Shown piece by piece: positions 1,641-29,713 of a stretch of 32,503 bases of DNA. The position numbers were made by a program, and so were the translations under genes. The notes under the pieces are model-generated. The model made no database searches and was not told the DNA's origin. It worked only from the letters and a program-made list of their open reading frames with translations. The stretch's first letter is position 1; every line of letters starts with the position of its first letter. The stretch comes from Tissierellales bacterium (GTDB lineage Bacteria; Bacillota; Clostridia; Tissierellales; Dethiosulfatibacteraceae), in contig JAFGVC010000113.1 in the NCBI GenBank assembly GCA_016938195.1, forward strand, positions 1 to 32,503. Reading direction: 5' to 3'.

Positions 1641-1675
1641 CCTTTTCATTCTCCTTTTAAATGTTTAGCACTAAC

Positions 1676-3445: not shown

Positions 3446-3540
3446 TCGTCATCTCCCTCTCAGAATAAGCTCATATTTTTTTAGTTATGGTTTATATATA
3501 CCCTAATTTTAAAAAAATATACATATTAAAACTTTCTTCA

Positions 3541-3572
3541 AAAAAAGAGGGCTTCTTTTCAGAAGCCCTCTT
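3541..3572 (-). terminator. Rho-independent terminator of the ggt operon
   Basis: A perfect 12-base stem (3545-3556 with 3561-3572, arm AAGAGGGCTTCT) with a TTTC loop is followed on the minus strand by T residues. It sits six bases past the stop of the glutamate-synthase-like gene and separates it from the diguanylate cyclase gene. Confidence 0.85.
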
Positions 3573-3577
3573 ACTGA

Positions 3578-6929: not shown

Positions 6930-7388
6930 ATGGGAAATTCAATCTTAGATGATATCGACATGGAAATACTCAAAATTCTTTCTTTAAATGGAAGAGAATC
7001 TTACATTGAAATAGGAAAGAAAGTCAATCTTTCACGTGTATCGGTAAAAACAAGAATAGATGCCATGATAGAACAAGGGGTCATTGAAAGCTTTTCAGTC
7101 ATCATTAATCCCGAAAAAACAGGTCAAACCGTATCTGTTTTTCTGGACATCAAAATCGTACCTGAGTACTTATACGGCATATCAAAGGAATTGAGCAATA
7201 TGCCATTCATCACCGATATTTATCACATGACCGGAGGTTCAAAGCTTCATGTTCATGCTTTGTTTATGGATAAGGAAGAGCTTAGTTCCTTCCTAGAAAA
7301 AAAGCTTTATGCAATGAAAGGAATTGAACATGTCAACTGTGATATGATTGTTTCAAGAATCAAGTGCAGAAAAGGAATAAGACCTTAA
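6930..7388 (+). CDS. Lrp/AsnC family transcriptional regulator
   Basis: The 152-residue protein has an N-terminal helix-turn-helix (DDIDMEILKILSLNGRESYI then LSRVSVKTRIDAMIEQGVI, about 5-50) and a C-terminal RAM effector domain (about 65-148), the usual Lrp layout and length. AGGAG nine bases before the ATG supports the start. It is divergent from the ggt/glutamate-synthase-like operon and may control that operon, the lctP gene downstream, or both. An amino acid is the usual ligand of the family; which one is unknown. Confidence 0.9.
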   Translation: MGNSILDDIDMEILKILSLNGRESYIEIGKKVNLSRVSVKTRIDAMIEQGVIESFSVIINPEKTGQTVSVFLDIKIVPEYLYGISKELSNMPFITDIYHMTGGSKLHVHALFMDKEELSSFLEKKLYAMKGIEHVNCDMIVSRIKCRKGIRP

Positions 7389-7416
7389 TTTACATTATCT
7401 TTATAGCATAATTTTT

Positions 7417-7446
7417 AGGGATTCGGCCGAAATGCCGAATCTCTTT
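7417..7446 (+). terminator. Terminator after the Lrp gene
   Basis: GATTCGGC (7420-7427) pairs with GCCGAATC (7434-7441) around CGAAAT, and the stem can extend by three pairs. A short T-rich tail follows on the plus strand. It lies 30 bases after the regulator's stop. Confidence 0.65.
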
Positions 7447-7682
7447 GTTGATTCATATACAATTAAAAGATTCTTCTCAAATTTCTTAAAATATTTCATT
7501 ATAATGTTGACTATCTAGCACCCTTAAGTTATATTATAATTAACAATATGACATTATTTGACTACATTATATCTTTATTTTTCTATTTTTGTCAACAATA
7601 TATCTAACAAAACATTTCAAAAGGAAAAATAGTTTCTATACTTCTTTAGAAAAACAAATAATACTAGAAAGGACCTTTTCTT
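7447..7682 (+). other. AT-rich gap upstream of lctP
   Basis: The intergenic space before lctP holds no recognisable gene or riboswitch. It is very AT-rich. TTGACT at 7507-7512 is followed at poor spacing by TATTAT/TATAAT-like sequence at 7532-7540, so a promoter here is possible but not firm. The lctP ribosome binding site (GAAAGGA) lies about ten bases before its ATG. Confidence 0.4.
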
Positions 7683-9224
7683 ATGCAAACTATACTATCA
7701 TTTACACCTTTGCTGATTCTGTTATCCTGCCTACTGATTTTTAAATTAACCACCAGTAAATCAGGTGCACTATCCGTAATAGCCGCTATTATCATTGCCT
7801 TTTTGTTCTTTGGAATGGACATTTTCGGATTAACCGTCGCCATGAGCAAAGGAATGTCTCTGGCACTTTACGTCCTGCTGATTATTTGGTCAGCGGTATT
7901 TCTATACCATCTGGTATATGAATTTGAAGCCATAGACGTCATCAACAAAAATATCATCATTTTCATTAAAGACCCTTTTACACAATTCTTGTTGCTATCC
8001 TGGCTCTTCTCTTCAGTATTGCAAGGTATAGCCGGTTTTGGAGTTCCGGTAATTATTGTCGTTCCTATTCTCATCCATCTTGGATTCAATCCTCTGCTTT
8101 CAGTTGCAGCTGTCCTACTAGGTCACTCTTGGTCCGTCAGTTTTGGTTCAATGGGATCATCGTTTTTTGCCATTACCTTAGTTACCGGCCTAGAACAACA
8201 AATTACCGGATATGCAATGGCTATTTTTGACTTTGTGGCCATGAATATGATGGGTCTAACTGTCTGCTATATTTATGGGAAATGGGAATACGTCAAAAAA
8301 GGATTGCTTTATGTTATCCCCACATCACTTGTCATGATTAGTGTTATGTTCGCAGTACTTTCATTAAATCTTTTATCCCTAGTAGGCCTAACAACCGCGC
8401 TATCCGGTCTAGTGACCATGTATATCATCTATGCTATCAAAGAAAAACCCGGAAAACCTGATGAGTTGTATGCCGACAAGCTAACCTTGGGAAAAGCTCT
8501 TCTTCCATACACGACCATCGTTGGATTATCCTTACTCTTTCAAGCTCTAAAGCTTGGTCAATACAGTATCGCTTTCAAATATCCGGCCTTTGTTACAAAG
8601 CTGGGTTATGAAGTAGCTCAACAAGCCTCCTATGCTAAAATCAAAATTTTTGGTCACCCAGCTCCCATCATAGCGATGTCCGTCATTGCAGCTATCATTG
8701 CCTATAAACGTGCAGGCATCTGGGAAACTGAAAAATTCAAGAATGTAGTCAACAAAACAATAAACAAAAGCATCGGAACAACCATCAGCTTAGTTTTTTT
8801 AATTACCATGGCTCTGGTCATGATGGATTCCGGAATGACCACGACGCTAGCCGTAAAAGTATCCGAAATCACAGGCAGATTTTATCCGTTTTTCGCACCT
8901 TATGTAGGCGTTCTAGGAAGTTTTATCACCGGTAGCAATACAAATTCTAATGTCATATTTGGTAAATTTCAAATCTCCGTTGCAACTGCTCTGGGCGTAA
9001 ACACCTATATCATGGCAGGATTACAATCTATCTCAGGCTCAATCGGAGTTAGCTTAGGTCCTACGACAATTTTAATGGCATCCTCTGCTTCAGGATTATC
9101 CGGTCAAGAATCAGAAATATATAAAATGGTCATCAAACCTGTCCTATTAACCGCTGCAATCATGGGAGTACTCAATTATCTACTGCTTGTTGTATTCCAG
9201 TTCACACTTGGAGGTGTCCTATGA
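7683..9224 (+). CDS. LctP-family (L-lactate permease type) transporter
   Basis: The 513-residue, strongly hydrophobic protein has about 12-14 membrane segments. It carries family stretches such as the SSVLQGIAGFGVPVIIVVPIL segment near residue 115, HSWSVSFGSMGSSFF, and the late MDSGMT and TGSNTNSNVIFGKFQ region. Members import lactate, glycolate or similar 2-hydroxy acids with protons. The protein is slightly shorter than typical LctP (about 530-560). It overlaps a tiny membrane-protein gene at its stop codon. The substrate here could be lactate or another short hydroxy acid; gene context does not decide. Confidence 0.85.
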   Translation: MQTILSFTPLLILLSCLLIFKLTTSKSGALSVIAAIIIAFLFFGMDIFGLTVAMSKGMSLALYVLLIIWSAVFLYHLVYEFEAIDVINKNIIIFIKDPFTQFLLLSWLFSSVLQGIAGFGVPVIIVVPILIHLGFNPLLSVAAVLLGHSWSVSFGSMGSSFFAITLVTGLEQQITGYAMAIFDFVAMNMMGLTVCYIYGKWEYVKKGLLYVIPTSLVMISVMFAVLSLNLLSLVGLTTALSGLVTMYIIYAIKEKPGKPDELYADKLTLGKALLPYTTIVGLSLLFQALKLGQYSIAFKYPAFVTKLGYEVAQQASYAKIKIFGHPAPIIAMSVIAAIIAYKRAGIWETEKFKNVVNKTINKSIGTTISLVFLITMALVMMDSGMTTTLAVKVSEITGRFYPFFAPYVGVLGSFITGSNTNSNVIFGKFQISVATALGVNTYIMAGLQSISGSIGVSLGPTTILMASSASGLSGQESEIYKMVIKPVLLTAAIMGVLNYLLLVVFQFTLGGVL

Positions 9225-13778: not shown

Positions 13779-15425
13779 TCAATTTAGAGGGTTTTTCATG
13801 AAACTCACTTGCACTTGTCCTTCTATTAATTTATAAATGTAATTCCCATTATATTGCTTATCCACTACAGGATAATCTTGTCTTAAATGGGCACCTCGAC
13901 TCTCTTTTCTTAGTAACGCACCTTCGATTATCATACTGGATATAAGAAGCATATTTTTCATTTCATAGAATTTTATTAATTCACTTTTATTTGTTACTCT
14001 AGCATTTAATAGAATATGTCTCAATTGATTTATTTGACTTCTAGCTTCTAATAATTCATTTTCGTTTCTAATAATTGAAGCTTTCTCCCACATTATTTCT
14101 CTCAACTGAATCTTTAATACTTCAAGATTGTGATGCCCTTCATAATTATAAATTTTTTCCTCATTTTCAAATTGCATATCCTCATAAACACACTTTGAAA
14201 CATCATTATCCTCAATAAGCTGACTAGCTTTTTTTCCTGCTACTAATCCAAAAACAACTGCTTCAGTCAAAGCATTTCCAGAAAGCCTATTAGCTCCATG
14301 AACGCCCCAAGCAGCCTCTCCACATGCTAACAAACCATTGATCCCCGTCTGGCATGATTGATCAATTTTTATACCTCCCAGATAAAAGTGAGCAGCGGGA
14401 GCTACGGGCAACAAATCTGTATTTAGTTCAAGTTTTCTTTTTTTTAATAACTTTTCTAATTCTAAGAATTTTTCATTGATAATATCTTTAGACAAAGCCG
14501 AACAATCTACAAAAACATAGTCTGGATTTCCTTTTCCTTCTCTAATCTCAGAATATACCGCTTGAGCCATACAATCTCTAGTAGCCATATTATCAGAAGC
14601 ACTATACCTTTTCATGAACTCCTCCCCCTCAATGTTTCTTAGTACCGCCCCTTCTCCAAAAAGTGGATTAGAAATAGTTACTTTCAACGGATAATACATC
14701 ATTGTTGGGTAAAATTGAATATATTCCATATCTCTTAATTCCGCTCCAGCTTCTAGTGCTAAACAATAAGAGTCTCCAGTAATATCTCTGGTGTTATTGG
14801 TTTTTGAAAAAACATTTCCGCCGCCTCCAGCTGCCAAAATAGTAACTTTAGACTTTATTATTACAAATTCATCCTCATTCTCTTTCTTGTTTATAGCCAG
14901 TGCACCTATCACACAATTTTGTTTTTTTAAAAGCCTTATAACCATCATATTATCTAAAATATTAATCTGCTTCTCAATAACTCTTTCTAATAATGGCTGT
15001 AAAATAGCTAATCCTCTATTATGATAAGGAACTTTAGCAATATCCGTTGGAAATGACCTTGATATTGAATGTCCTGGGGGTCTTTTTGTAATATAATCTT
15101 TATCGTTTTTTTTGAATCTGACTCCATAATTAGACAACACTTCAATAACGCTTTGAGACTCAGCGCAAAAAAATCTCATCATTTCTTTATCATTAATACC
15201 CTTGCTAGATTCACTAATATCTTTTTCAAAAGCATCAATACTGTCTCCGTTTTCTTTTTTTACGCATGCCATGGCCGCTCCGGTAACAAGAGTATTACCG
15301 CTTCGCCCGGTAATGCTCTTAGACACTATAGTTACGTCAATATTCTCTTTTTTAGCTTCCAGCGCAGCAATTATTCCAGATAATCCGCCTCCAACCACTA
15401 ATACATCAGTATCAACGACTCTCAT
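13779..15425 (-). CDS. Fumarate-reductase/succinate-dehydrogenase-type flavoprotein
   Basis: The 548-residue protein has the FAD fold (VLVVGGGLSGIIAALEA, residues 9-25), the capping domain and the C-terminal helical domain of FrdA/SdhA/NadB-type enzymes. Matching landmarks include GEGAVLRN (257-264), RD at 283-284 (likely the catalytic Arg), His346 in AAHFYLGGIKID, and GEAAWGVHGANRLSGNALTE (369-388). Two departures stand out: the covalent-FAD His of the RSHT motif is missing (GRSGNT, 40-45), and the substrate-binding His of QFHPT is Tyr239 (QFYPT). FAD is therefore probably non-covalent and substrate choice altered. No iron-sulfur or membrane-anchor subunit is encoded nearby. It is the last gene of the operon. 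It likely interconverts a saturated and an unsaturated dicarboxylate; direction and substrate are unknown. Confidence 0.85.
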   Translation of the reverse strand: MRVVDTDVLVVGGGLSGIIAALEAKKENIDVTIVSKSITGRSGNTLVTGAAMACVKKENGDSIDAFEKDISESSKGINDKEMMRFFCAESQSVIEVLSNYGVRFKKNDKDYITKRPPGHSISRSFPTDIAKVPYHNRGLAILQPLLERVIEKQINILDNMMVIRLLKKQNCVIGALAINKKENEDEFVIIKSKVTILAAGGGGNVFSKTNNTRDITGDSYCLALEAGAELRDMEYIQFYPTMMYYPLKVTISNPLFGEGAVLRNIEGEEFMKRYSASDNMATRDCMAQAVYSEIREGKGNPDYVFVDCSALSKDIINEKFLELEKLLKKRKLELNTDLLPVAPAAHFYLGGIKIDQSCQTGINGLLACGEAAWGVHGANRLSGNALTEAVVFGLVAGKKASQLIEDNDVSKCVYEDMQFENEEKIYNYEGHHNLEVLKIQLREIMWEKASIIRNENELLEARSQINQLRHILLNARVTNKSELIKFYEMKNMLLISSMIIEGALLRKESRGAHLRQDYPVVDKQYNGNYIYKLIEGQVQVSFMKNPLN

Positions 15426-15443
15426 TAAAACACCCTCTAATTC

Positions 15444-16340
15444 TTATTTATATTTTTCCATCAAAACATCACTTGTTAAAAATTGGTTTTCTAACTGTCT
15501 ATACGCTGGTAGACCAATCAAATCAACAAATTCTTCAAATGAAGTAATCATCTCAGGATTCTCACGAGTTGTTCCTTTTTCCTTCAGTTGTGTTAAAATA
15601 TTGAAAATTCCTCGATACGCGCCAAATAAAGCCGTAACTGGAAAAGAGACCCTAGCAGCTCCCCACTTTTCTAGTTTTGAAACCGTTAGCATTGGAGATT
15701 TACCACCATCGGTCATATTGATACTCACAGGAGCATCTATTGATTTAATGACTCTTTCAATATCTTCCTCTCTAAAAGGTGCTTCCACAAATATTAAATC
15801 TGCTCCTGCCTTAGCATAAGCATTCCCTCGCTTTATAGCTTCTTCTATGCCATAAACTGCAATAGCATCAGTTCTAGCATTAATCACAAAATCCTTGTCG
15901 CTTCTTGAACTAACAGCCGCTTCAATCTTTAAGATAGCTTCCTCTAAAGAAATAATCTGCTTGCCATCCATATGTCCACATCTCTTTGGAAAAACTTGGT
16001 CTTCAAGATTAATTCCGGCAGCACCAGCTTTTTCAAATTCTTTTACAGTTCTAATTAGATTTAACGCATTTCCAAACCCCGTATCACCATCTGCCATAAT
16101 TGGAATATGCACTGAATCACACATATTTTTGGTATGATTAAGCATCTCAGTCATCGTTGTTAAGCCTATATCTGGAAATCCTAACAAACTAGCTGAGATA
16201 CCGTACCCTGTGGCCTGAACAGCTTTAAATCCAATTTTCTCAGCTATTTTCGCACTCAAACAATCATACACTCCTGGCATTACCAATATTTCAGGTGCAT
16301 TTATGAGTTCTTTTAAAATTGTAGTTTTTCTACTACTCAT
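15444..16340 (-). CDS. PEP mutase/isocitrate lyase family C-C lyase (PrpB or 2,3-dimethylmalate lyase like)
   Basis: The 298-residue protein belongs to the family that cleaves 2-methylisocitrate, isocitrate or 2,3-dimethylmalate by retro-aldol reaction to an alpha-keto acid plus an acid. Landmarks are MPGVYDCLSAKIAEKIGFKA (21-40), the Mg-binding MADGDTGFG (82-90), NLEDQVFPKRCGH (111-123) with catalytic Cys121 in KRCGH (usually KKCGH), and INARTDA. The length is that of PrpB and of the 2,3-dimethylmalate lyase of Eubacterium barkeri. No citrate synthase or methylcitrate dehydratase is nearby, so a methylcitrate cycle is not supported. With LeuCD-type genes in the same operon, dimethylmalate or another methylated malate is a plausible substrate. 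Confidence 0.85.
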   Translation of the reverse strand: MSSRKTTILKELINAPEILVMPGVYDCLSAKIAEKIGFKAVQATGYGISASLLGFPDIGLTTMTEMLNHTKNMCDSVHIPIMADGDTGFGNALNLIRTVKEFEKAGAAGINLEDQVFPKRCGHMDGKQIISLEEAILKIEAAVSSRSDKDFVINARTDAIAVYGIEEAIKRGNAYAKAGADLIFVEAPFREEDIERVIKSIDAPVSINMTDGGKSPMLTVSKLEKWGAARVSFPVTALFGAYRGIFNILTQLKEKGTTRENPEMITSFEEFVDLIGLPAYRQLENQFLTSDVLMEKYK

Positions 16341-16356
16341 TTTATCACCATCCTTT

Positions 16357-18258
16357 TTATGTTCTTAATTTCCTAGCTGTTAAAAATTGAAAACCAAATA
16401 TACCAAACACAAGGCCAAAACCAACAAGATCAGTCATAGTTCCTGAAAGTATCAACAATATCGCTCCCAGCATCAGTATAGGTCTCAATACCATACTCAT
16501 AGATTTAATAAAATAACCTTCTACTGCCGCACCTAAGGCAACAACACCTATTACAGAAGTGACAAATACAGGAATTATCTTTAAAATCGTACTATCCGGA
16601 GTAATTAATAAATCGGGAGAATATATAAACATAAATGGGATAATGAAACCCGCGATAGCTAACTTCATCCCCGCCCATCCTGTTTTTGCAGGATCAGCTC
16701 CAGATATACCTGCAGCAGCGTATGAACCAACAGCTACGGGTGGTGTAATAGTTGAAAGTATGCCAAAGTAGAAAACAAACATATGCGCGCCAAGTGGAGC
16801 CACTCCTAGTCGTATAAGTGCAGGAGCCGCAACCGCACTAGTTAATACATAACAGGCTGTAGTAGGAAGCCCCATACCCATAATTATAGATACAATCATT
16901 GTTAATATAAGTGTAGTAAAAAGATATCCACCACTCAATTTCAATATTGCACTAGCTAAAGCCAGTATAGCCCCAGTAAGAGAAGTAACCCCAATCACTA
17001 TTCCAATAATTGCACATGCTATAGCAACAGGAACCGCATTCAAAGCACCTTTTTTTAGCGCCTCCATCAATAATGGGATGTTGATTCTTGTTTCTTTTTT
17101 TATTAAACTTGATAAAACAGCAAGAATTATACCCCAAACCGCAGCATAAAGCGCATTATAACCACTTACAAGCATATATATTATACCTATAAGAGGAATA
17201 AACAAATGCCCTTGAGATAAAATTACGTCTTTTGTCTTAGGAAGCTCAGCTTTAGGTATACCCTCTATTCCCATTTTTGATGCTCTTAAATGAACAATAG
17301 CCCAAACACCAATATAGTATAATATGGCTGGAATTAAAGCAGCCGCTAATACTTGAACGAACGGAATAGCCAATGAATCTGAAATAATAAATGCAGCTGC
17401 TCCCATGACCGGTGGCATAATCTGACCACCCGCTGATGCGGCAGCTTCAATACCACTTGCAAAATAATCCTTGTAACCTGTTTTTATCATCAATGGAATC
17501 GTAAAACTTCCAGTGGTTACAACATTTGCAGAAGTGCTTCCACTAATGCTTCCCATCAATCCCGATGATAGTACGGATACTTTCGCAGGACCTCCTTTAG
17601 CATGTCCGGCAATAGATAAAGCTAAGTCGTTAAAAAACGATGACATACCTGTTGCAGATAAGAATGCTCCAAATAATATAAACATATAAATATAAGTTGA
17701 TGAAACCCCTAATATCTGTCCAAAAACTCCTTCTGTTGTCATGTATAAATGTTGAATGATTCTATTCAATGAAAACCCACTATGCATTAACGGACCAGGA
17801 ACATAACGACCTAAAAATGCATACAAAATAAATATCGCTGATAATAAAGGTAATGCATATCCAATGGTTCTCCTAGCAGCTTCAACTATCAATATAATTG
17901 TAATTACGCCGAATATAATATCCGTTTGGATATACAGCCCACCCGTTAGGGCGAGCTGTCTAAATCTAATAATTATATTTCCGATAGAAGCAAAGGAGAG
18001 CGCAATTAAGATCCAATCAAAAATACTCGGTTTATTTTGTGGCGATTTTGATGATGCAGGATATATAATAAAAATCAATGTCAACACAAATATTAAGTGA
18101 ATACTTCGCTGCTGAATAGGCCCTAGAGCTCTAAATGCTGCTGTGTAAAGATGAAAGACTGACATCACTATAGCAATAACTGCTACCATTGATTTAACTG
18201 TTCCTGACAATTGTCTCTTTTTTGATTTTTTCTTGATATCTTCTATATCTTCGCTCAA
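16357..18258 (-). CDS. TRAP transporter fused permease (DctQM-type, TAXI-associated)
   Basis: The 633-residue membrane protein joins the small 4-helix and large 12-helix TRAP subunits in one chain, as is usual for TAXI systems. Key stretches are GPGLMHSGFSLNRIIQHLYM-like (the actual text is VPGPLMHSGFSLNRIIQHLY), GLMGSISGSTSANVVTTGSF, GIEAAASAGGQIMPPVMGAA and MGMGLPTTACYVLTSAVAAP. These are conserved in the 4TM/12TM family. The start is TTG at 18258, with GGAGG seven bases before it. It follows the TAXI binding protein by 34 bases that contain a small hairpin. Transport is driven by an ion gradient rather than ATP. Together the pair should import the substrate of the downstream enzymes. Confidence 0.93.
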   Translation of the reverse strand: MSEDIEDIKKKSKKRQLSGTVKSMVAVIAIVMSVFHLYTAAFRALGPIQQRSIHLIFVLTLIFIIYPASSKSPQNKPSIFDWILIALSFASIGNIIIRFRQLALTGGLYIQTDIIFGVITIILIVEAARRTIGYALPLLSAIFILYAFLGRYVPGPLMHSGFSLNRIIQHLYMTTEGVFGQILGVSSTYIYMFILFGAFLSATGMSSFFNDLALSIAGHAKGGPAKVSVLSSGLMGSISGSTSANVVTTGSFTIPLMIKTGYKDYFASGIEAAASAGGQIMPPVMGAAAFIISDSLAIPFVQVLAAALIPAILYYIGVWAIVHLRASKMGIEGIPKAELPKTKDVILSQGHLFIPLIGIIYMLVSGYNALYAAVWGIILAVLSSLIKKETRINIPLLMEALKKGALNAVPVAIACAIIGIVIGVTSLTGAILALASAILKLSGGYLFTTLILTMIVSIIMGMGLPTTACYVLTSAVAAPALIRLGVAPLGAHMFVFYFGILSTITPPVAVGSYAAAGISGADPAKTGWAGMKLAIAGFIIPFMFIYSPDLLITPDSTILKIIPVFVTSVIGVVALGAAVEGYFIKSMSMVLRPILMLGAILLILSGTMTDLVGFGLVFGIFGFQFLTARKLRT

Positions 18259-18273
18259 TTCAATTCCTCCATT

Positions 18274-18288
18274 CGTTCTAAAAGAACG
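18274..18288 (-). other. Intercistronic hairpin between TAXI and TRAP permease genes
   Basis: CGTTCT and AGAACG form a perfect 6-base stem with an AAA loop in the 34-base gap, five bases past the TAXI stop and just before the permease ribosome binding site. No T-run follows, so it is not a terminator. It may stabilise the upstream mRNA 3' end or dampen translation of the permease. Confidence 0.4.
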
Positions 18289-18292
18289 TTCA

Positions 18293-19303
18293 TTAATCTA
18301 AAATGCCAACTTCCTTGAAATATTTCTCTGCACCTGGGTGTAAAGGTACCGCCATACCACTTCTAGCTGTTTCTGGTCTGGTTTGAGTGAAATAGTTATG
18401 AAATGTTTGCAAATACTCTAAGTCTTCGAATATTGCTTTAGTAATTTCATAAACTGTATCCTCAGATAATTCACTTGATGCAATAAATAACGAAGACCCA
18501 GCAATTGTAGATAATTCTTCATCTTGATTCTTATAGGTTGCAGCAGGTATAACACTAGCGCCAAACTCAGGATTATCTTTAGTCAATAATTCTATTTTAT
18601 CAGAAGTAATTGGTAAAAGTTTAATTTTATCTGTAAGCATCAATTCAGCTATTTGAGCGCTTCCAATTCCTGTTGCATATATATGGCAATCTACTCCTCC
18701 TGTTTTTAACCCTTCTGTAGCTTCTGCTCTTGTACCATATACAGCTGTATAGTCTTCCGGAGAAATCCCATGAGCTGCTAAAATTTGATTGGTGTTAACT
18801 TCAATACCTCCACCGATAGGTCCAACAGCAATCTTTTTGCCTCTCAAATCTTCAACTGTATTTATTCCAGCGTCATTTCTTACAAGTATATGAAACTCAT
18901 TAAAATATATAGCTGTGATTCCTCTCATATTCTCAATTGGTCTTCCTTCAAATCCACCAAAACCCTCATACGCTTCTCTTAGTGTGGCAGATTGAACCAA
19001 TGCCAATTCGACTTCTCCCTGTCCAATAAAATTACAATTCTCTGCTGACCCTCCAGTTGCCTGAGCACTAGCATTAACATTTTCTATCTTTTCATTAATC
19101 ATCTGTGCTAATGCACTTGCCAAAGGAAAAAAGTTTCCTCCCATACTAGCAGAACCAATTCTTAAAAATTGTTTTTCTACCTTTGGTTCAATTGATTCAT
19201 TTCCGCTTGTTGATGGCTGTGGTTGTGAACAACCTGTAATAATAACACTTAATAAAGAAACCAGCATTATTACAACAACTAATCTTTTTGCTATTTTTCT
19301 CAT
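18293..19303 (-). CDS. TAXI family TRAP transporter substrate-binding lipoprotein
   Basis: The 336-residue protein has a lipoprotein signal with lipobox ITGC (Cys25) and a low-complexity linker. It then matches the TAXI solute-binding family: LRIGSASMGGNFFPLASALAQ, ASAQATGGSAENCNFIGQGE, LVQSATLREAYEG, DLRGKKIAVGPIGGGIEVNT, and a late HPGAEKYFKEVGI. It binds the substrate outside the membrane and hands it to the fused permease encoded just downstream. GGAGG precedes the ATG. TAXI ligands are poorly known (glutamate and 2-oxoglutarate have been reported), so the ligand here is best inferred from the operon: a branched C5-C6 di- or tricarboxylate. Confidence 0.93.
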   Translation of the reverse strand: MRKIAKRLVVVIMLVSLLSVIITGCSQPQPSTSGNESIEPKVEKQFLRIGSASMGGNFFPLASALAQMINEKIENVNASAQATGGSAENCNFIGQGEVELALVQSATLREAYEGFGGFEGRPIENMRGITAIYFNEFHILVRNDAGINTVEDLRGKKIAVGPIGGGIEVNTNQILAAHGISPEDYTAVYGTRAEATEGLKTGGVDCHIYATGIGSAQIAELMLTDKIKLLPITSDKIELLTKDNPEFGASVIPAATYKNQDEELSTIAGSSLFIASSELSEDTVYEITKAIFEDLEYLQTFHNYFTQTRPETARSGMAVPLHPGAEKYFKEVGILD

Positions 19304-19338
19304 TTGAATCCTCCATTTTTTTTTTAGCTAACAAGTAC

Positions 19339-19836
19339 CTAAATTCTAAATTGACCTTCATCCTTCAAGTACTTGACAAGTCCACCTTTGTTTAAAATAT
19401 CAATCATAATTGTAGGCATATTATTAAGAATTATAAAGTCATTAGTTTCTTTAAAGCTCAATATGCCTTGAACTAAATCTATATTAATCTCTTGATCATT
19501 ATTTAATAAATTTGTATTTGCAATTATAACGGGTAGTCCAATATTGATTGCGTTTCTATAAAAGATGCGCGCAAAAGATTTTGCTACAACTGCTTTGACC
19601 CCTGCATATGATAAAGCTAATGGTGCTTGCTCTCGTGACGAACCACATCCAAAATTTTCGCCTGCAATGATTATTTTAGACTTGATTACTTCCAACAAGC
19701 TACTGTCTAAATCTTCAAAAACGTGTGAAGCCAATTCATTCATGTCTAATGTCTTTGTATATTTACCAGCGATTATTAAATCCGTATTAATATCATTGCC
19801 ATTAACAAACTTATAAGTTTTACCTTTAATTATCAC
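19339..19836 (-). CDS. LeuD-type dehydratase small subunit
   Basis: The 165-residue protein is the swivel-domain subunit of the isopropylmalate isomerase/homoaconitase/2,3-dimethylmalate dehydratase group. It has NDINTDLIIAGKYTKTLDMNE near the N-terminus and the substrate-specificity loop GENFGCGSSREQAPLAL (59-75). The start is GTG at 19836 with GAGGAG eight bases before it; only five bases separate it from the large-subunit gene, so the two are cotranslated. No leuA or leuB lies nearby and the operon is catabolic, so leucine synthesis is unlikely. DmdB of the nicotinate-fermenting Eubacterium barkeri is a good functional model. Confidence 0.9.
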   Translation of the reverse strand: MIIKGKTYKFVNGNDINTDLIIAGKYTKTLDMNELASHVFEDLDSSLLEVIKSKIIIAGENFGCGSSREQAPLALSYAGVKAVVAKSFARIFYRNAINIGLPVIIANTNLLNNDQEINIDLVQGILSFKETNDFIILNNMPTIMIDILNKGGLVKYLKDEGQFRI

Positions 19837-19841
19837 CTCTT

Positions 19842-21050
19842 TTACTCCTCCAATCTCGGATCAATCAATTTTCCATGCAATGCGCTCCATGCAGCGGTCG
19901 CAGGAGAACAAAGATATATTTCCGCTTCTTTGTTTCCCATTCTTCCTAGAAAATTTCTATTTGAAGTCGATAATACTTTTTCTCCATCTGCAGGAATCCC
20001 TCCCAATGTACCTACGCAAGGCCCGCAACCCGGTGTCAAAATTATAGCGCCCGACTGCAACAAAATATTTAACACCCCATTTTCCGATATTTTTTCAAGA
20101 ATTTTTTTTGACGCCGGAGCAATTCGCATTCTAACATTTTTAGGGATTTTTTTTCCTTTAAGTATCTTTGCAACTACTTCTAAATCTTCTAACCTACCAT
20201 TGGTACAGCTACCTATAAAAACCTGATCAATTGGAATGCCAATATATTCAGAAACCGGATAAACATTGTCAACATAATGTGGAACTGCTATCATAGGCTC
20301 AATCTTTGAAAGATTAATTTCTATCATCTTTTCATATTTTGCATTATCATCCGGAACAATGTCAAAAGTCTGAAAAATACCTGCTTTAGCTCCCATTTCA
20401 ATAGACATATTCGCTATAGTAAGTTTTTCATCCATTCTAAGTTGAGTATCCTTGTCAACACAAAACTCTAAAACTTTGTAAGATGCACCATTAGCTCCGA
20501 TAAGTCTACTTAAATACAAAATTAAGTCTTTTGCAAATACCCCTTCATTAAAATTTCCTTTAATATTAATTAGAATTGAATCTGGTACCTTCATCCATGT
20601 TTTCCCTGTTAACATCACTCCGGCTAAATCTGTTGCACCTACCCCTGATGAAAAAGAACCCCAAGCGCCATAAGTACAGGTATGTGAATCTGCTCCCAAG
20701 ACAATGCTTCCTGTTTTAACATGATTATTCTCATAAATTAACTGATGACAAATCCCTTCACCTTCATCATATAGAATAATTTCTTGCTCATATGCAAAAT
20801 CTCTAATATTTTTATGTAAATTTGCTATTTTGTTATTGGGACAAGGTGTCGCATGATCAATAACTATTGCCATTTTTTTAGCGTCAAAAACATGTATACC
20901 ATTCATCTCTTTAAATGCTTTTATTGCTATAGGCGCTGTAGTATCACTAGCCATTATAAAATCAACCTCTACAATGACAATGTTTCCTGGTTTTACTATA
21001 CCCGCAACACAATGAGAATTGATGATTTTTTCTACAACCGTATACGTCAT
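19842..21050 (-). CDS. LeuC-type (aconitase family) dehydratase large subunit
   Basis: The 402-residue protein carries the three [4Fe-4S] ligands of the aconitase family, Cys282 in FIGSCTNGR and Cys342/Cys345 in TPGCGPCVG, plus GADSHTCTYGAWGSFSSGVG (119-138) and DHATPCPN (65-72). It pairs with the small subunit just downstream to add or remove water on a malate-type 2-hydroxy acid and its cis-unsaturated partner. Members act on isopropylmalate, homoaconitate, citraconate/citramalate or dimethylmaleate. The length and split-subunit form fit the last three. The ATG has AGGAG nine bases upstream. Context with CoA-transferase and lyase genes argues for a degradative hydratase. Confidence 0.92.
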   Translation of the reverse strand: MTYTVVEKIINSHCVAGIVKPGNIVIVEVDFIMASDTTAPIAIKAFKEMNGIHVFDAKKMAIVIDHATPCPNNKIANLHKNIRDFAYEQEIILYDEGEGICHQLIYENNHVKTGSIVLGADSHTCTYGAWGSFSSGVGATDLAGVMLTGKTWMKVPDSILINIKGNFNEGVFAKDLILYLSRLIGANGASYKVLEFCVDKDTQLRMDEKLTIANMSIEMGAKAGIFQTFDIVPDDNAKYEKMIEINLSKIEPMIAVPHYVDNVYPVSEYIGIPIDQVFIGSCTNGRLEDLEVVAKILKGKKIPKNVRMRIAPASKKILEKISENGVLNILLQSGAIILTPGCGPCVGTLGGIPADGEKVLSTSNRNFLGRMGNKEAEIYLCSPATAAWSALHGKLIDPRLEE

Positions 21051-21066
21051 CGATGCACTCTCCTTT

Positions 21067-22017
21067 TTAACTACTTGAATTATTATTAATTTGACCTATA
21101 GGCTTTTCCTTAACCAAATCTGATACTTTGCCTGCAACCAAAATGTAGCTATCCGTATCATGATTAACCATTTTTTTTACATAAGCTCCCAACTTAATGG
21201 CTTGATCTAAATTTACCCCTGTCTCTATTCCCATCTCATGAAGCATATGTACTAAATCTTCAGATGAAAGATTACCCGACGCTCCAGGTGCGTACGGACA
21301 GCCTCCTAATCCAGCGAAAGCAGCATCATAATGTGTTATACCTGCACTCATTCCGGCAACCACATTAGCTAAGGCCATCCCTCTTGTATTGTGGAAATGC
21401 AGAAACCATTTAATATTTGAATATCTGTTTGTCAATATCTGACTTCTTTCATATACTTGCTTAGGATTAGCTACCCCCGTTGTATCTGATAAAGATATTT
21501 CATGAATACCTATACGCATAAATGATTCAACAAGTTCTGCAATACGATCTAAAGATATAGGGCCTTCAAAAGGACACCCAAAGGCAGTAGAAATTGCGCC
21601 TGAAACACTCATATTATATTTATCAGCCAACTCAACACATGCTTGAAAATCATTAATGGTTTCATAAGGTTTTTTATTGAAATTAGTCATATTGTGAGAT
21701 TCACTAGCCGAAACCGTCAATTTCACTTTATTCACGCCACAACTTGCCGCTCGCTCTATTCCCCTTAGATTAGTGACAAGTGCTCGGTATTGCACATCAT
21801 CTTTTCGTTTTATGTGCTTGGCGATTTCATCTGTGTCTGACATTTGAGGAACCGCTTTCGGATGAACAAACGAACCAATTTCTATGACTTGATAACCTGA
21901 TTCTGTTGCTTGGTTAATGCAAAATATCTTATCTTCTAAGCTAATGACACCTTTTTCGTTTTGAAATCCATCTCTTGGTCCCACTTCGCAAATCGTTATT
22001 TTCCCCGGAAAAAACAT
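21067..22017 (-). CDS. HMG-CoA lyase family enzyme
   Basis: The 316-residue TIM-barrel enzyme has the family motifs EVGPRDGFQNEK (11-22, catalytic Arg15/Asp16), IGSFVHPKAVPQMSD, the metal-binding HFHN (207-210) and the signature GLGGCPYAPGASGN with catalytic Cys240. The classic reaction splits 3-hydroxy-3-methylglutaryl-CoA to acetyl-CoA and acetoacetate. The operon offers no leucine-degradation partners (no methylcrotonyl-CoA carboxylase), so the real substrate may be a homologous tertiary-hydroxy acyl-CoA such as citramalyl-CoA, which would give acetyl-CoA and pyruvate. It follows the CoA-transferase gene by 12 bases. The fold and chemistry are secure; the substrate is inference. Confidence 0.9.
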   Translation of the reverse strand: MFFPGKITICEVGPRDGFQNEKGVISLEDKIFCINQATESGYQVIEIGSFVHPKAVPQMSDTDEIAKHIKRKDDVQYRALVTNLRGIERAASCGVNKVKLTVSASESHNMTNFNKKPYETINDFQACVELADKYNMSVSGAISTAFGCPFEGPISLDRIAELVESFMRIGIHEISLSDTTGVANPKQVYERSQILTNRYSNIKWFLHFHNTRGMALANVVAGMSAGITHYDAAFAGLGGCPYAPGASGNLSSEDLVHMLHEMGIETGVNLDQAIKLGAYVKKMVNHDTDSYILVAGKVSDLVKEKPIGQINNNSSS

Positions 22018-22029
22018 CTAATGACCACC

Positions 22030-23214
22030 TTATATGATATTTTTTGATTTTAATAGCTTTAAATATTCATCATCTAGTTCCAAAAGCCCCTTGTAAATAT
22101 CATCATTATGTTCTCCAAGCTCAGGACCTGCCCATTTAACCTCACCAGGAGTTTCCGAAAATACAGGTGTAATACCAGGCATTTTTACTCCTCCAAGTTT
22201 ATCACATTGTACCTCAATAATATTGTTTCTAAATTGATAGTGTTCATCACTAAAAATATCTTGTATGCTATACACCAGATTAACTGGTACCCCTTCATCA
22301 TCTGCAATTTTTTTCATTTCGGAAAAATTCATATTCTTAACCCACGTTCTCACTATCTCATCAATATAATCATCATTCTTTAGTCTTGCTTCATTTTTTG
22401 AATACTTATCCAATAAATCTCTTCGTTTCATAGCATTTGTGAGGTATTCAAATGTCTTATCAGTGCTACAAACTAAAACAACCCATTTACCGTCTTTTGT
22501 TTGATAAGTCCCTCCGGGACTAGAAGTGCCACTCAATGTTGGTTTCCTTTCTCTTATATTACCATTCAAGCTATAATCGGCTACCAAAATTTCTTGCATT
22601 CTAAAAATTCCTTCATATAAACTGACATCCACCTCTTGACCTTTTCCACTTATTATGTCTCTATGATATAATGCCATCATAGCTGCCATTGCAGCGTATA
22701 AACCCGCAATATAGTCCGCTAATGAAAAAGAAGGACTAACAGGAGGTTTGTCAGGATGGCCTGTAATATAAGTCATCCCTGAAAAAGCAGTTGCCGGCGT
22801 TCCAAAACCCGCCTTATGACTATATGGACCAGTCTGACCATATCCCGTAACTCTCACAACCACAATTTTAGGATTTACTTTTTTCAGTGTCTCCATACTC
22901 AAGCCCCATTTGTCCAAAGTCCCAGTTTTAAAATTCTCTATCAATACATCACTCTTAGCAACTAAATCTAACAATATCTTTTTGCCCTCATCAAAATGAA
23001 GGTCTAGGGTAATACATTTTTTGTTTCTTCCCATAGCTGCCCATCTAACACCCTGACCTTTGTGATAAGGACCTAATCCTCTAAACGGATCTCCTTTTTG
23101 TGGCATTTCAATTTTTATAACTTCGGCTCCAAAATCAGCCATCAATCCAGCTGCAAATGGAGCGGCAATAACCGTTGAAATATCTAATACTCTAACACCC
23201 ATCAAAGCACTCAT
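22030..23214 (-). CDS. Class III (CaiB/BaiF) CoA-transferase
   Basis: The ~394-residue protein is a family III CoA-transferase: GVRVLDISTVIAAPFAAGLM ADFGAEVIKIE at the N-terminus, DLHFDEGKKILLDLVAKSDV LIENFKTG near 71-98, YGQTGPYSHKAGFGT near 125-139, and the likely catalytic Asp167 in FSLADYIAGLYAAM. It moves CoA from a donor such as succinyl- or acetyl-CoA to a carboxylic acid. I start it at the ATG at 23214, which has AAGGAG six bases upstream; an in-frame ATG at 23229 overlaps that site. It is the first gene of the eight-gene operon and probably activates the hydroxy acid that the HMG-CoA-lyase-like enzyme then cleaves. Confidence 0.92.
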   Translation of the reverse strand: MSALMGVRVLDISTVIAAPFAAGLMADFGAEVIKIEMPQKGDPFRGLGPYHKGQGVRWAAMGRNKKCITLDLHFDEGKKILLDLVAKSDVLIENFKTGTLDKWGLSMETLKKVNPKIVVVRVTGYGQTGPYSHKAGFGTPATAFSGMTYITGHPDKPPVSPSFSLADYIAGLYAAMAAMMALYHRDIISGKGQEVDVSLYEGIFRMQEILVADYSLNGNIRERKPTLSGTSSPGGTYQTKDGKWVVLVCSTDKTFEYLTNAMKRRDLLDKYSKNEARLKNDDYIDEIVRTWVKNMNFSEMKKIADDEGVPVNLVYSIQDIFSDEHYQFRNNIIEVQCDKLGGVKMPGITPVFSETPGEVKWAGPELGEHNDDIYKGLLELDDEYLKLLKSKNII

Positions 23215-23246
23215 TAAAATCTCCTTCACGATATATTTCCGTTCTA

Positions 23247-24895: not shown

Positions 24896-27800
24896 CTAAT
24901 TCTCTTTTCTAAAATATACTTCTGGTAAAAAAATTTTGATCTCATGTTCCGTGTTTTCCTTACTCCAATATACAATGTTTGCAATTATTGCCTTGAACGG
25001 AAAATAATTCCTATTCTTATAGTAAGTTATTCTGTCAATGAAATGCCTTGAAAATTTTAAAACTTGCTTTCCTTTATTGGTACAACATCCATCTTCACAT
25101 ACAGCTAATAGTTGTCCTGTATATAATTCACTGATATCCTTTTGATAAAACTGGAAATGGTCTAGCCAAACATCTTTATGAGATAATTGAAAAATTAACT
25201 CAGTTGGAGGTTGATAGGACTTGTCTGTTCTTAATCTTGTAATATTTTCAGTCTGAATTCCCTCTAAATAGCTTCCATTATAATGTATGCTTAATTTATT
25301 TTTAGCTCTTGTCATTGCAACATATAACTGCCTATAATCTTCGTCTGTCACTAGATTCACGCCCTCAAGAAGCAGAAATACATGATCAAATTCTCTTCCT
25401 TTAGACTTGTGAATTGTTGATACACTTATAACGTCATGATCCTCATTATAGAAATCCTCTAATTTTGATTCCCTGATAAAGATTCTAAAATCCGATTTGT
25501 ACCTCATCTTCGGATTGATTGCAACAAATTCATCTAATATCCTTAAGCACAGCAATCTATTTGTGCTATTCGGAAAATATACGTCTAGCATTCTTTTAAC
25601 CTTATTTATGCATTCATCATGAATAATCACTTCGTTCACATCTGATTCAATCATTGTCAGCATAAACCTAATTTCCAGTAAATTAGTAAGATTAAACCCA
25701 TCATTAGATTGGATAAGTTTAGCCTTCATACCATTTTTTCTCAACAGCCCTGCAACCTGCAAAGCTTCATCATTGGTGCAAGTTAACACGCTAACTGTGC
25801 CAGATAAATTTTCAGACAACAAGTCATCAACCAATGGGGTAATGATATGTTCACTACTATAACAAGCCACCTTAATCAATCCTATTTCTGATTGCACAGC
25901 ATGTATTTGAGTTTTTTTAATTCTGTTTGAAATCATTAAGGCAAATTTATTCGTAAAATCAACCAAGTTTTTCTTACTTCTATAATTATCAATAAGCTCA
26001 TAAATCATTAAATGTTTGGCCTCAGCTAAGGTCATCATGAATTTTGAATTAGAACCTCTGAACTGATAAATATTCTGATCATCATCACCGACGGCGATTA
26101 CTCTCATATTCTCGTTATATTCCATCAATGCCTGAACAAGTTGAAATTCATTAATATCCATGTCTTGAGCTTCGTCTATAACTAAAACAGCCTTTGTCAA
26201 TCTGTTCATATCAACATCTTTCTCTTTGATTCTTCTAATAGTCTCACTAATGACCTCACCTGATTTTTCCAAGCTTCCAATCTTTCCCAACAAATCAAAG
26301 CAATAAGAATGAAACGTTTTAATCTCAATATAATGAGCTGCATTACCAATCAATTGAATTAATCTTTTTTTGAATTCCGATGCAGAAGCTCTTGAAAAAG
26401 TAACCATCAACATTTGTTCATGCTTCACATCTTCCATCAGCAGCAAGGAGGCTAGTTTATGTACAAGTATTCTTGTTTTACCACTTCCCGGACCAGCAGC
26501 CACAACAATTGACTTCGAATTATTGTCCTTAATAATGCTTAGCTGTGACGGAGATAACTCAGCAAAAATCTGATTGAATTTAGCGGGGGTAATATTTCTT
26601 TTTATTTCTCCTTGTCTACTTCCTTTAAAATATTTATTCAAAAAAGAAGTGTAATTGAGTTGAAAATAATCATCAACAAACCGAAGTGCATCTTTATAGT
26701 CTTCAATCATCTTCCTGGCATATTCCCCAACAATATGGATTTGCTCAACTTTGTTTTCATAAAACTGTTCTAATTTTTTATAATCATCCTTTTTATATCG
26801 CCTTTTATTGTCCTTCTCTAATCTTTCAATCGTCATCGCATTATAAACGACCAAAAACCCTCCCTCGATTTTTAGAGATTCAATCCTTGATAAATAAAAA
26901 AGTGCATCCTCTATTTCATTGAAACTCGTTTCAGATTTGTATAAAGAGAGTCTATTTTCAAACTCAAGCTTTAACTCTAAAACTGAAAACTCAACTAATT
27001 TGCATTCAGATGACAACTGATCGTTTTCATTTTTATTATTTTCTTTTTCATTTTTTTCAAAAAGATATCTTACAATAAATTCAGCCAATTCTTGACGCTT
27101 AACCATTTTTTCTTCTAGCTCTTTCTTGGATAAATAACTTTCTATTGCAATATGATTCTTAGAGGATGCTCGCTCTTTTTTTCTTATCCAATGCTTAATT
27201 GTCCATATATTCAAGATGGTCTTTAACTTCTTAAGTCCAAAATCCTCATCACATAATTTAGACGCTTGCTCATTTATTTCTTTCAAGTTGTATATTTTAG
27301 CCTCATCACTCAGTGTATCAATCAAAATTCGTTCTAAATTTCTATAAGATTCTAATGTTGTTAAGGAATGATTAATGTTATCCCTTCTATTAATAAAAGC
27401 ACTCAAATCCTTAGCGTCTGCAAGTATTTGTTCTTCCCTTAGTATATTAATAATGTGTATTACTTCTTCTTTTACTATGCCTAAATAATCTGAAATATAA
27501 TCAACTCTTGATTCTGCCGTTTCATCAGTAAAATAACTTCTGCTCTTTGATGAAAAAAGCTTTTTGATAATCCTCACCGCATTTTCTTTTTGATTTTCTT
27601 GAAATTTTGGAGAATTATTTATCTTTTCAATCGCTTCCTGTGCATTTTTAACCAAGATGCTGTTGGCAAAAATTCGAGGCATATTTTGACCTCTCTTAAT
27701 GTATCCGGATTGTTCAAGCGCGGAAATAGCCGTTTTAACCCTAGTTTCTATTTCTGATATGCCGTCATTCCAACCGGCTCTCCTTGCAATTTCTAGAGCT

Positions 27801-29713
27801 GATTGAGAAACCTGATTTCTGAATTGCGTTATCTCTTTGATAGCCTTCCATATTTGTTGAATCTCCTGTATATTGAGTTTGTTCTGGTTTAGTAATATGA
27901 AATGTTTATTTAAATCCTCATCATTAAATAATATATAACAGCTTGCAGAAATCGATTCATCTCGCCCTGCTCTGCCTGCTTCCTGCACATAATTTTCTAA
28001 AGAATCCGAGATGTCATAATGTATAACTACCCCTACATCTTTCTTATCCACACCCATACCAAAAGCTGAAGTCGCAACCATAATATCGATTTCCCCTCTT
28101 ATAAAGGCATCTTGATTTTCTGTTTTTTCCCTAATATCCATCTTTCCGTGATAGGGCTTCGCGAAAAATCCATCGAAATTCAATCTATCGGCTAATTCCT
28201 TTGCTCTCTTGGTTCGTGATACATACACAATAGTAGGACAGTTCTTTTCTTCAAGAATAAATCGCAAAGCACTGTACTTCTCTTCCTCGCTTTCTTTCAA
28301 AAAAACACAAAAGCTCAAGTTACTTCTAGCCACCCCTGATTTAAAAACTTCTAAATCAATGGAAAGATTTTCCTTAAAATATTCTTTAATATCAGCGATA
28401 ACATTTTGCTTAGCCGTTGCCGTAAAACAAGAAACAGGAATTTTCTCAGGTAGGTTTTTCTTCTTTTGATAATTATTGATAAAATCACCGATATATAAAT
28501 AATCTACTCTAAAATCTTGCCCCCAAGCTGAAAAGCAATGTGCTTCATCGATTACAAAACGAACAACATTTCTACCCAATAGCAAATGTTCAATCGTTCG
28601 TGAGCGCAGCGATTCCGGTGAAATATATATTAGCGAAGCTGAACCGTCCTGTACACGCTCAAAAGATTTTGCTCTTTCTATTGGATCTAGAAGACCATTG
28701 ATTGTGACAGCTTCAGTAATTCCAACTGATTCCAAATTATCTACTTGATCTTTCATAAGCGATTGTAATGGGGAAATAACAACTGTTAGACCTTTCACAT
28801 TTTGACCCGACATAAGCGCAGGTAATTGAAATGTGATAGACTTACCTCCACCTGTTGGAAAAATAGCTAATAAAGATTTGTCTTTAACTGCCGCGTTCAC
28901 AGCTTTTTCTTGCAAGGGTTCTCCGGCATAGCTTCTAAAACCGGAATATCCAAAAAACCGCTCTAACCCCTTATGTATATCCAGAGCTTCGTTGCAATAT
29001 TCGCAGCCTTCTATACATGGTTTATTCCTTAAGAGATGCATGGCTCGTTCAACATACGGCATATTTTTTACAACCCATGGAGGGGTTATCGAATCTCTAC
29101 TATTAGCATTTATTATAGCCAATGCATATGCCAATTCAACGGGGGCTTCTTCTATCAATATACTAATTGGTGCATGAAAGCATATTTTTTTCCGGAATCT
29201 TTTTCTTATAATTGTTTCAAGTTCAATATCACGTGTTTGAAATAATTCCAAATAATTGAAAAAACCTTTAAAAAAAGACTGATTATATAGCAACGCGTAA
29301 AAGATGTTACGCAAATCTTCATCTAATCCAATAAAGGCCATTTCCTCGTCATGAAATAAACACTTGGCATTCAGAGCATCATTTAAAGGATTGTTTCTTT
29401 GGTCGCTTTGTAGTTTGTCATCCTTGACAAGTGCGTGATAAGGCTTCGAAGGGAATAATAGCGGTGATAAAAATAACGTGTCAACAATATGGTCTTCTCT
29501 GATTTTCGCTTTCTTGATAAAATCTCCGATATACTTTAAATCATGCATCAAAATATTGTGGCCACCAATAAAATCGGAATCCTTCAAAAAGTTGACAAAA
29601 TCTGAATTTGAAGATGAGTGAAAAGTATCCCCATTAAGCTTGGCGCCTCCTAAATCTAGGATTCTACCACTTTTGGGTTCAACTTCAGTATCAATAAATG
29701 TAATCTTTCTCAT
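24896..29713 (-). CDS. Exonuclease-RecQ-UvrD triple fusion helicase
   Basis: This 1605-residue protein carries two different helicase engines. Residues 1-125 resemble a DEDD 3'-5' exonuclease (FIDTE with Asp8/Glu10, GHNILMHDLKYI with Asp58, NNPLNDA with Asp112), although the usual catalytic His of DEDDh enzymes appears to be Asn107. Residues ~265-610 are an SF2 RecQ helicase: Walker A FPTGGGKS (285-292), DEAH (389-392) with the RecQ aromatic loop CFSAWGQDFR, and QEAGRAGRD (577-585). A CxxxCxxC cluster (233-240) precedes it; the RecQ zinc cysteines after motif VI are missing. A helical middle follows. Residues ~1050-1480 are an SF1 UvrD/Rep-type helicase: GPGSGKT (1074-1080), VIDEAQD, GDDDQNIYQFRG, VSTIHKSKGREFDHV and YVAMTRAK (1464-1471). 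Residues ~1500-1605 form an unassigned C-terminal domain. The gene stands alone, with a weak GGGG-type ribosome site. A DNA repair or fork-processing role is likely. Confidence 0.9.
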   Translation of the reverse strand: MRKITFIDTEVEPKSGRILDLGGAKLNGDTFHSSSNSDFVNFLKDSDFIGGHNILMHDLKYIGDFIKKAKIREDHIVDTLFLSPLLFPSKPYHALVKDDKLQSDQRNNPLNDALNAKCLFHDEEMAFIGLDEDLRNIFYALLYNQSFFKGFFNYLELFQTRDIELETIIRKRFRKKICFHAPISILIEEAPVELAYALAIINANSRDSITPPWVVKNMPYVERAMHLLRNKPCIEGCEYCNEALDIHKGLERFFGYSGFRSYAGEPLQEKAVNAAVKDKSLLAIFPTGGGKSITFQLPALMSGQNVKGLTVVISPLQSLMKDQVDNLESVGITEAVTINGLLDPIERAKSFERVQDGSASLIYISPESLRSRTIEHLLLGRNVVRFVIDEAHCFSAWGQDFRVDYLYIGDFINNYQKKKNLPEKIPVSCFTATAKQNVIADIKEYFKENLSIDLEVFKSGVARSNLSFCVFLKESEEEKYSALRFILEEKNCPTIVYVSRTKRAKELADRLNFDGFFAKPYHGKMDIREKTENQDAFIRGEIDIMVATSAFGMGVDKKDVGVVIHYDISDSLENYVQEAGRAGRDESISASCYILFNDEDLNKHFILLNQNKLNIQEIQQIWKAIKEITQFRNQVSQSALEIARRAGWNDGISEIETRVKTAISALEQSGYIKRGQNMPRIFANSILVKNAQEAIEKINNSPKFQENQKENAVRIIKKLFSSKSRSYFTDETAESRVDYISDYLGIVKEEVIHIINILREEQILADAKDLSAFINRRDNINHSLTTLESYRNLERILIDTLSDEAKIYNLKEINEQASKLCDEDFGLKKLKTILNIWTIKHWIRKKERASSKNHIAIESYLSKKELEEKMVKRQELAEFIVRYLFEKNEKENNKNENDQLSSECKLVEFSVLELKLEFENRLSLYKSETSFNEIEDALFYLSRIESLKIEGGFLVVYNAMTIERLEKDNKRRYKKDDYKKLEQFYENKVEQIHIVGEYARKMIEDYKDALRFVDDYFQLNYTSFLNKYFKGSRQGEIKRNITPAKFNQIFAELSPSQLSIIKDNNSKSIVVAAGPGSGKTRILVHKLASLLLMEDVKHEQMLMVTFSRASASEFKKRLIQLIGNAAHYIEIKTFHSYCFDLLGKIGSLEKSGEVISETIRRIKEKDVDMNRLTKAVLVIDEAQDMDINEFQLVQALMEYNENMRVIAVGDDDQNIYQFRGSNSKFMMTLAEAKHLMIYELIDNYRSKKNLVDFTNKFALMISNRIKKTQIHAVQSEIGLIKVACYSSEHIITPLVDDLLSENLSGTVSVLTCTNDEALQVAGLLRKNGMKAKLIQSNDGFNLTNLLEIRFMLTMIESDVNEVIIHDECINKVKRMLDVYFPNSTNRLLCLRILDEFVAINPKMRYKSDFRIFIRESKLEDFYNEDHDVISVSTIHKSKGREFDHVFLLLEGVNLVTDEDYRQLYVAMTRAKNKLSIHYNGSYLEGIQTENITRLRTDKSYQPPTELIFQLSHKDVWLDHFQFYQKDISELYTGQLLAVCEDGCCTNKGKQVLKFSRHFIDRITYYKNRNYFPFKAIIANIVYWSKENTEHEIKIFLPEVYFRKEN

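Follow-up and report, generated by a model that had tools for sequence, protein, structure and literature searches.

In animals, a single WRN chain carries a 3'-5' exonuclease module of the DnaQ fold followed by a RecQ core, and its two activities cooperate while moving 3'-5', as a coordinated machine (PMC1435914). DinG of Bacillota likewise joins an exonuclease to an SF2 helicase, and RecBCD/AddAB bring two helicase motors, or motor relics, and a nuclease to DNA ends. A UvrD or RecQ motor has been recruited to defense in Gabija GajB, the RT-associated defense helicase and DpdF, and a RecQ-type helicase belongs to PsyrTA (RqlHI), a defense/toxin pair. A single protein sharing features with all of these systems is encoded in the window, i.e., the whole 32,503-nucleotide stretch of Tissierellales DNA analyzed. 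An SF2 motor, an SF1 motor and a nuclease in one conserved chain are an unusual arrangement, which is laid out as follows.

24896-29713, minus strand: whole gene, exonuclease-RecQ-UvrD fusion of 1605 aa, with ATG start and stop codon at 24896-24898.
29330-29713, minus strand: DnaQ/DEDD exonuclease-like module, residues 1-128, from the AlphaFold2 model, Foldseek, DinG/PolC profile matches and conservation.
29393-29395, minus strand: Asn107 codon; in DEDDh enzymes the general-base His occupies this position, and 76/76 relatives have Asn.
28967-29329, minus strand: helical region with C178, C233, C237 and C240, residues 129-249, likely a single metal site, from conservation and the AlphaFold2 model.
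27824-28966, minus strand: RecQ-type SF2 helicase core, residues 250-630, from TIGR00614, PDB RecQ 1oyw and motifs.
26576-27823, minus strand: conserved linker without a Pfam domain, residues 631-1046, predicted helical/winged-helix-like, lacking the RecQ zinc cysteines.
25256-26575, minus strand: UvrD-type SF1 helicase, residues 1047-1486, from PF00580 (107.7 bits), PF13361 (61.7 bits) and motifs.
24899-25255, minus strand: C-terminal extension with no known domain, residues 1487-1605, the least conserved part.

The open reading frame runs from ATG to stop over 1605 codons with zero internal stops, and its modules follow each other, from N to C terminus, as DnaQ-like exonuclease, four-Cys cluster, RecQ SF2 core, 415-residue linker and UvrD SF1 motor. 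Pfam recognizes DEAD (residues 266-438), Helicase_C (479-584), UvrD-helicase (from 1054) and UvrD_C (to about 1479), with no match in residues 1-250, 612-1046 or 1480-1605. A scan of GTDB genomes yielded at least 494 stretches encoding relatives. Of 73 complete homologous loci, drawn from several phyla, 71 have the same layout at 1600 to 1641 aa; the best 80 of the at least 494 loci comprise 71 full fusions, 7 cut by contig ends only and 2 interrupted, with no other domain layout among them. That an assembly error or frameshift joined two or three separate genes can practically be dismissed, since dozens of independently produced assemblies, some of them from isolates, contain homologues of the same layout. 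The first-pass annotation, which had described one protein with exonuclease, RecQ and UvrD modules, had named exactly this artifact as a danger and had called for a genome survey of the domain order, was right in detail in its modular reading, and the surveyed layout is fixed. The fusion is real and widespread in unrelated bacteria. That it forms a widespread, horizontally moving family was not part of that annotation.

The N terminus had been called exonuclease-like from its acidic residues, with Asn107 in place of the DEDDh His and with structure prediction of residues 1-125 as the suggested check; prediction, alignment and conservation all bear this out. An AlphaFold2 model of residues 1-250, built with 37 relatives, reached a mean pLDDT of 88.8 and a pTM of 0.86, and its order of strands and helices is that of a DnaQ-type exonuclease. 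The best solved match by Foldseek was S. aureus DinG (8zef; E 2.4e-4, probability 1.0), and exonuclease domains of polymerases ranked next. A sequence search of the PDB with the N-terminal profile gave no significant match. The profile does match proteins of 940 to 977 and 1422 to 1543 residues in unrelated Bacillota genomes; three of these, which we take from their sequences to be one DinG and two PolC proteins, are matched on their exonuclease domains.

The module thus has the RNase-H-like DnaQ fold and the four catalytic acids of DEDDh enzymes, D8, E10, D58 and D112, each invariant in 76/76 sequences, and lacks the ExoIII His. An alignment with DinG sets that His opposite Asn107, which is itself invariant (76/76), so that the substitution is a trait of the family and not a mutation of one copy. 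H93 was considered as a substitute catalytic His and is not favored, because DinG and PolC, which keep the ExoIII His, also carry a His here. A DEDD-type fold is supported by the model; for activity, the kept acids argue for metal-dependent chemistry and the missing His argues against it. Loss of the His usually cripples DEDDh enzymes. With Asn at the general-base position in all 76 relatives, the chance comes close to even that the module is a catalytically dead clamp for the 3' end or single-stranded DNA, which would make the protein a double helicase without nuclease activity; against this, the four acids are invariant across phyla, where acids kept for the fold only would be expected to drift. 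The dead-clamp reading concerns one module only and fits a role in defense or repair alike. The invariant Asn107 could also show how far DEDD exonucleases depend on their fifth residue.

Ahead of the helicase lies the separate CxxxCxxC pointed out in the first-pass annotation, as C233-x3-C237-x2-C240; C178 is conserved to the same degree and joins it. Each of these four cysteines is kept in at least 75 of the 76 relatives, and C178, C237 and C240 are missing together from a distant member in Aliarcobacter, a joint loss that suggests that the four form one putative metal site. The core that follows scores 281.8 bits against TIGR00614 (cutoff, 219.8), and its closest solved structures are bacterial RecQ proteins (PDB 1oyw, E 3.4e-53). 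RecQ motifs I to VI and the aromatic-rich loop are all present, including TGGGKS (287-292), DEAH (389-392), TAT (431-433) and QEAGRAGRD (577-585). The core falls short of the full-length RecQ equivalog TIGR01389 (315 bits, with 640 required). The RecQ zinc cysteines, reported missing at first reading, are indeed absent after the core: C592 is the sole Cys between residues 586 and 820, and Pfam finds neither a zinc module there nor an HRDC domain in the fusion.

Residues 600-1050 are among the best-conserved parts of the protein (mean column identity, 80% in 38 sequences). The linker model is of low confidence and mostly helical, with winged-helix-like pieces. Its fold search returned no match under E 0.001, its profile had no significant match in a PDB sequence search, and for an RQC winged helix there is accordingly a low-confidence resemblance without a significant fold match. 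The UvrD-type motor shows SF1A motifs I, Ia, II, III, IV, V and VI, among them AGPGSGKT (1073-1080), DEAQD (1180-1184), GDDDQ (1209-1213), NYRS (1243-1246) and VAMTRAK (1465-1471), and does not reach the full-length UvrD/PcrA/Rep equivalog (101 bits versus 1144 for uvrD). The claim of complete Walker and helicase motifs in both engines thus stands, all classical motifs being found, intact and near invariant in 76 relatives, and it is a fair inference from these motifs that both motors would be active.

Members of the family are found in Bacteroidota, Bacillota, Desulfobacterota-type bacteria and Fibrobacter and, from plasmid records, in Campylobacterota. Within these groups the gene is sporadic: the linker profile occurs in 16 of 398 Bacillota genomes (about 4%), and the fusion occurs in 6 of 150 Flavobacterium species (4%) and in 7 of 197 Chryseobacterium relatives. 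Full-length copies from Sphingobacterium, Cyclobacteriaceae and Chitinophagaceae share 93 to 94% identity, and identity between a Fibrobacter and a Tannerellaceae copy is 86%. A quick tree, whose long branches make its deep joins untrustworthy, groups the sequences mostly by phylum with a few interphylum placements. Decay is also seen, with copies interrupted in G176, in L094 and in the second copy of G403 and partly deleted in G155, G267, G364 and G425. In the window's own family the genomic position varies: G001 and G004 share one gene context, unlike that of the window, and the permease flanking the window's gene sits on other contigs in these two genomes. The fusion is a patchy accessory gene that moves between families and phyla without fixed neighbors. 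In six Flavobacterium species (L042, L045, L046, L050, L053 and L058), it is located at or close to the same M13-type peptidase gene, beside which the inserted genes differ from species to species; this locus looks like an insertion hotspot.

Such mobility might mean that the gene is cargo serving mobile elements, by maintaining plasmids or integrative elements or by attacking competing elements, and not host defense. The plasmid copies of Bacteroides finegoldii and Aliarcobacter cibarius lie beside partition genes, the few viral-contig copies adjoin site-specific recombinases, and integrases recur among the neighbors. Nevertheless, we consider this reading improbable: the fusion occurs in just 3 of 72,556 plasmid records and in 0 of 50,697 phage records, and most copies are chromosomal.

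The main rival to defense is accessory DNA repair, in which the fusion would be a cellular repair or recombination helicase-nuclease, a bacterial analogue of WRN acquired by some lineages and able to replace the canonical RecQ. It retains weight because in four genomes of the window's family, the window's own and three sister genomes (G000, G001, G004 and G007), no RecQ other than the fusion was found; canonical RecQ was found in this family only in G002, which has both, and in G005. The exonuclease-then-RecQ order of WRN and the high purifying conservation also fit. However, neither the fusion nor a canonical RecQ was found in G003 and G006, both incomplete genomes, and a repair enzyme sits poorly with the lack of a fixed locus, presence in a few percent of species, decayed copies and recurrent adjacency to complete defense systems. 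We regard this explanation as unlikely, if clearly less so than mobile cargo.

No partner is conserved across the family, and a conserved operon partner was accordingly rejected; partners rotate. Those found include PsyrTA, Olokun, Shango, type IV restriction, AbiE, methyltransferases, HNH, Schlafen-type helicases, a macrodomain and ADP-ribosylglycohydrolase. In Bacillota, PsyrT (E 1.8e-294) and PsyrA (9.6e-114) start 152 bp downstream of one fusion (L158), OloA (2.6e-117) lies 32 bp from another with Shango SngC (4.8e-254) on its other side (L157), type II methyltransferases lie 77 bp from a third (L160), and an AbiLi/AriA-like ATPase is near a fourth (L166). The genome with the fusion set between the Olokun-like OloA and the Shango-like SngC (L157:6519-18417) also holds a second, disrupted copy (L167) and a fragment. 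Within the window's family, an apparent six-gene operon (L154, 83-12754) runs through a methyltransferase, a PLD-helicase resembling type IV restriction enzymes, DUF2779, NERD-UvrD_C and an ADP-ribosylglycohydrolase, whose stop directly adjoins the fusion, and is possibly a larger undescribed system.

Bacteroidota copies neighbor AbiEii, AbiEi, HNH, SLFN-g3 helicase, ResIII-DUF3427 and integrase genes. Among 121 nearest-neighbor genes, mostly from Bacteroidota loci, PADLOC and Pfam found recurrent AbiEi/AbiEii, integrases, N6 methylases, HNH nucleases, SLFN-g3, ResIII helicases and ADP-ribosylglycohydrolases. As a matched control, 121 genes were taken from these contigs at a distance of 30 kb or more; they showed housekeeping families and isolated, scattered defense matches, and among the families listed, no PADLOC family was common to two control genes and no mobile or defense Pfam family recurred. 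PADLOC families numbered 173 in the neighbors versus 83 in the controls, a crude comparison that indicates an association rather than a measured enrichment factor, since the control rests on the top 25 families listed, PADLOC includes generic models and some neighbors share descent. The defense signal is stronger in the Bacillota relatives than in the Bacteroidota set, and since many loci have no defense gene nearby, the association is frequent and not universal.

ADP-ribosylglycohydrolase genes lie near the fusion in five loci (L154:6891-7937, L155:5091-7633, L070 [ORF 7268-8080], L095:5864-7842 and L104:3246-4163), hinting at a link with ADP-ribose removal. One of these, L155, also has a macrodomain and a vWA-like protein nearby, and large proteins of 645, 713 and 1474 aa without a Pfam match are encoded beside its fusion (974-5024 and 13841-18262).

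In the window, the neighbors are metabolic, with no defense gene; one ABC ATPase matches mad3/AriA, which was discounted as generic ATPase similarity. The first-pass annotation had considered phage defense possible with nothing next to the gene to support it, which holds for the window and fails for the family, whose members adjoin complete known defense systems; the survey of neighbors that it had proposed found PsyrTA, OloA and SngC beside relatives. Positions 13779-23229 of the window hold a likely catabolic cluster of flavoprotein, isocitrate-lyase/PEP-mutase-like lyase, TAXI-TRAP transporter, aconitase-type large and small subunit, HMG-CoA-lyase-like and CoA-transferase genes, which in our reading resembles the dimethylmaleate end of nicotinate fermentation.

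Because it is sporadic in unrelated bacteria and often beside antivirus genes, the fusion is a probable defense or DNA-conflict enzyme. UvrD and RecQ family motors move 3'-5', and by analogy both motors of the fusion would run in this direction. A DNA-end and gap processor would be the most economical model. In it, opening of the gapped, forked or 3'-tailed intermediates that phage replication typically produces would fall to the RecQ motor, with the duplex held by the linker; the UvrD motor would remove bound proteins or sustain movement of the complex, and the exposed 3' end would be gripped, degraded or trimmed by the exonuclease module. If both motors sat on one strand, one would lead and the other would follow it; placed on opposite template strands at a fork, they would move apart, and the action on both sides of a fork suggested in the first-pass annotation is possible. 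The architecture raises the question of how one DNA accommodates two motors with the same predicted polarity. Taken with this model, mobility and neighbors favor use against phage or other invading DNA, and we consider it rather probable that the fusion, a member of a horizontally transferred family, processes DNA on its own and is employed in this way. More tentatively, and with somewhat less than an even chance, it may be an undescribed single-gene antiphage system in which two unlike 3'-5' motors and a DEDD-Asn exonuclease would attack intermediates of phage replication or recombination, in some cases coupled to enzymes that remove ADP-ribose. If the link to defense is true, a few percent of genomes in the sampled groups carry an unlisted system.

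How does the fusion compare with the systems already known? Membership in PsyrTA, Dpd, Gabija or the PADLOC single-gene systems was rejected, as the best 25 matches to PADLOC models cover single modules only and none is full length. The PsyrT match spans only residues 267-634, leaving the exonuclease and UvrD modules as extras, and no PsyrA partner is among the neighbors in the window; GajB, the RT-associated helicase and DpdF each match one motor only, and their partner genes are absent here. In RecBCD/AddAB the motors belong to SF1, the nuclease is a PD-(D/E)XK enzyme and the subunits are separate, whereas the fusion unites SF1, SF2 and DEDD modules in one chain. DinG, the closest N-terminal match in fold and by profile, has an XPD/Rad3-like helicase, the catalytic His and no SF1 motor. 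With WRN the fusion shares the exonuclease N-terminal to RecQ, but WRN has no UvrD motor, and the fusion has no detected RecQ zinc module or HRDC and does not end in the zinc/RQC/HRDC arrangement without a second motor; its Asn also stands where DEDD enzymes have His or Tyr. NCBI records label it "RecQ family ATP-dependent DNA helicase," an annotation that hides the fusion. The parts are known, and their combination as a conserved family, described in no paper found in the literature searched (which lay outside subscription journals and most preprints), has a fair chance of being a distinct defense system.
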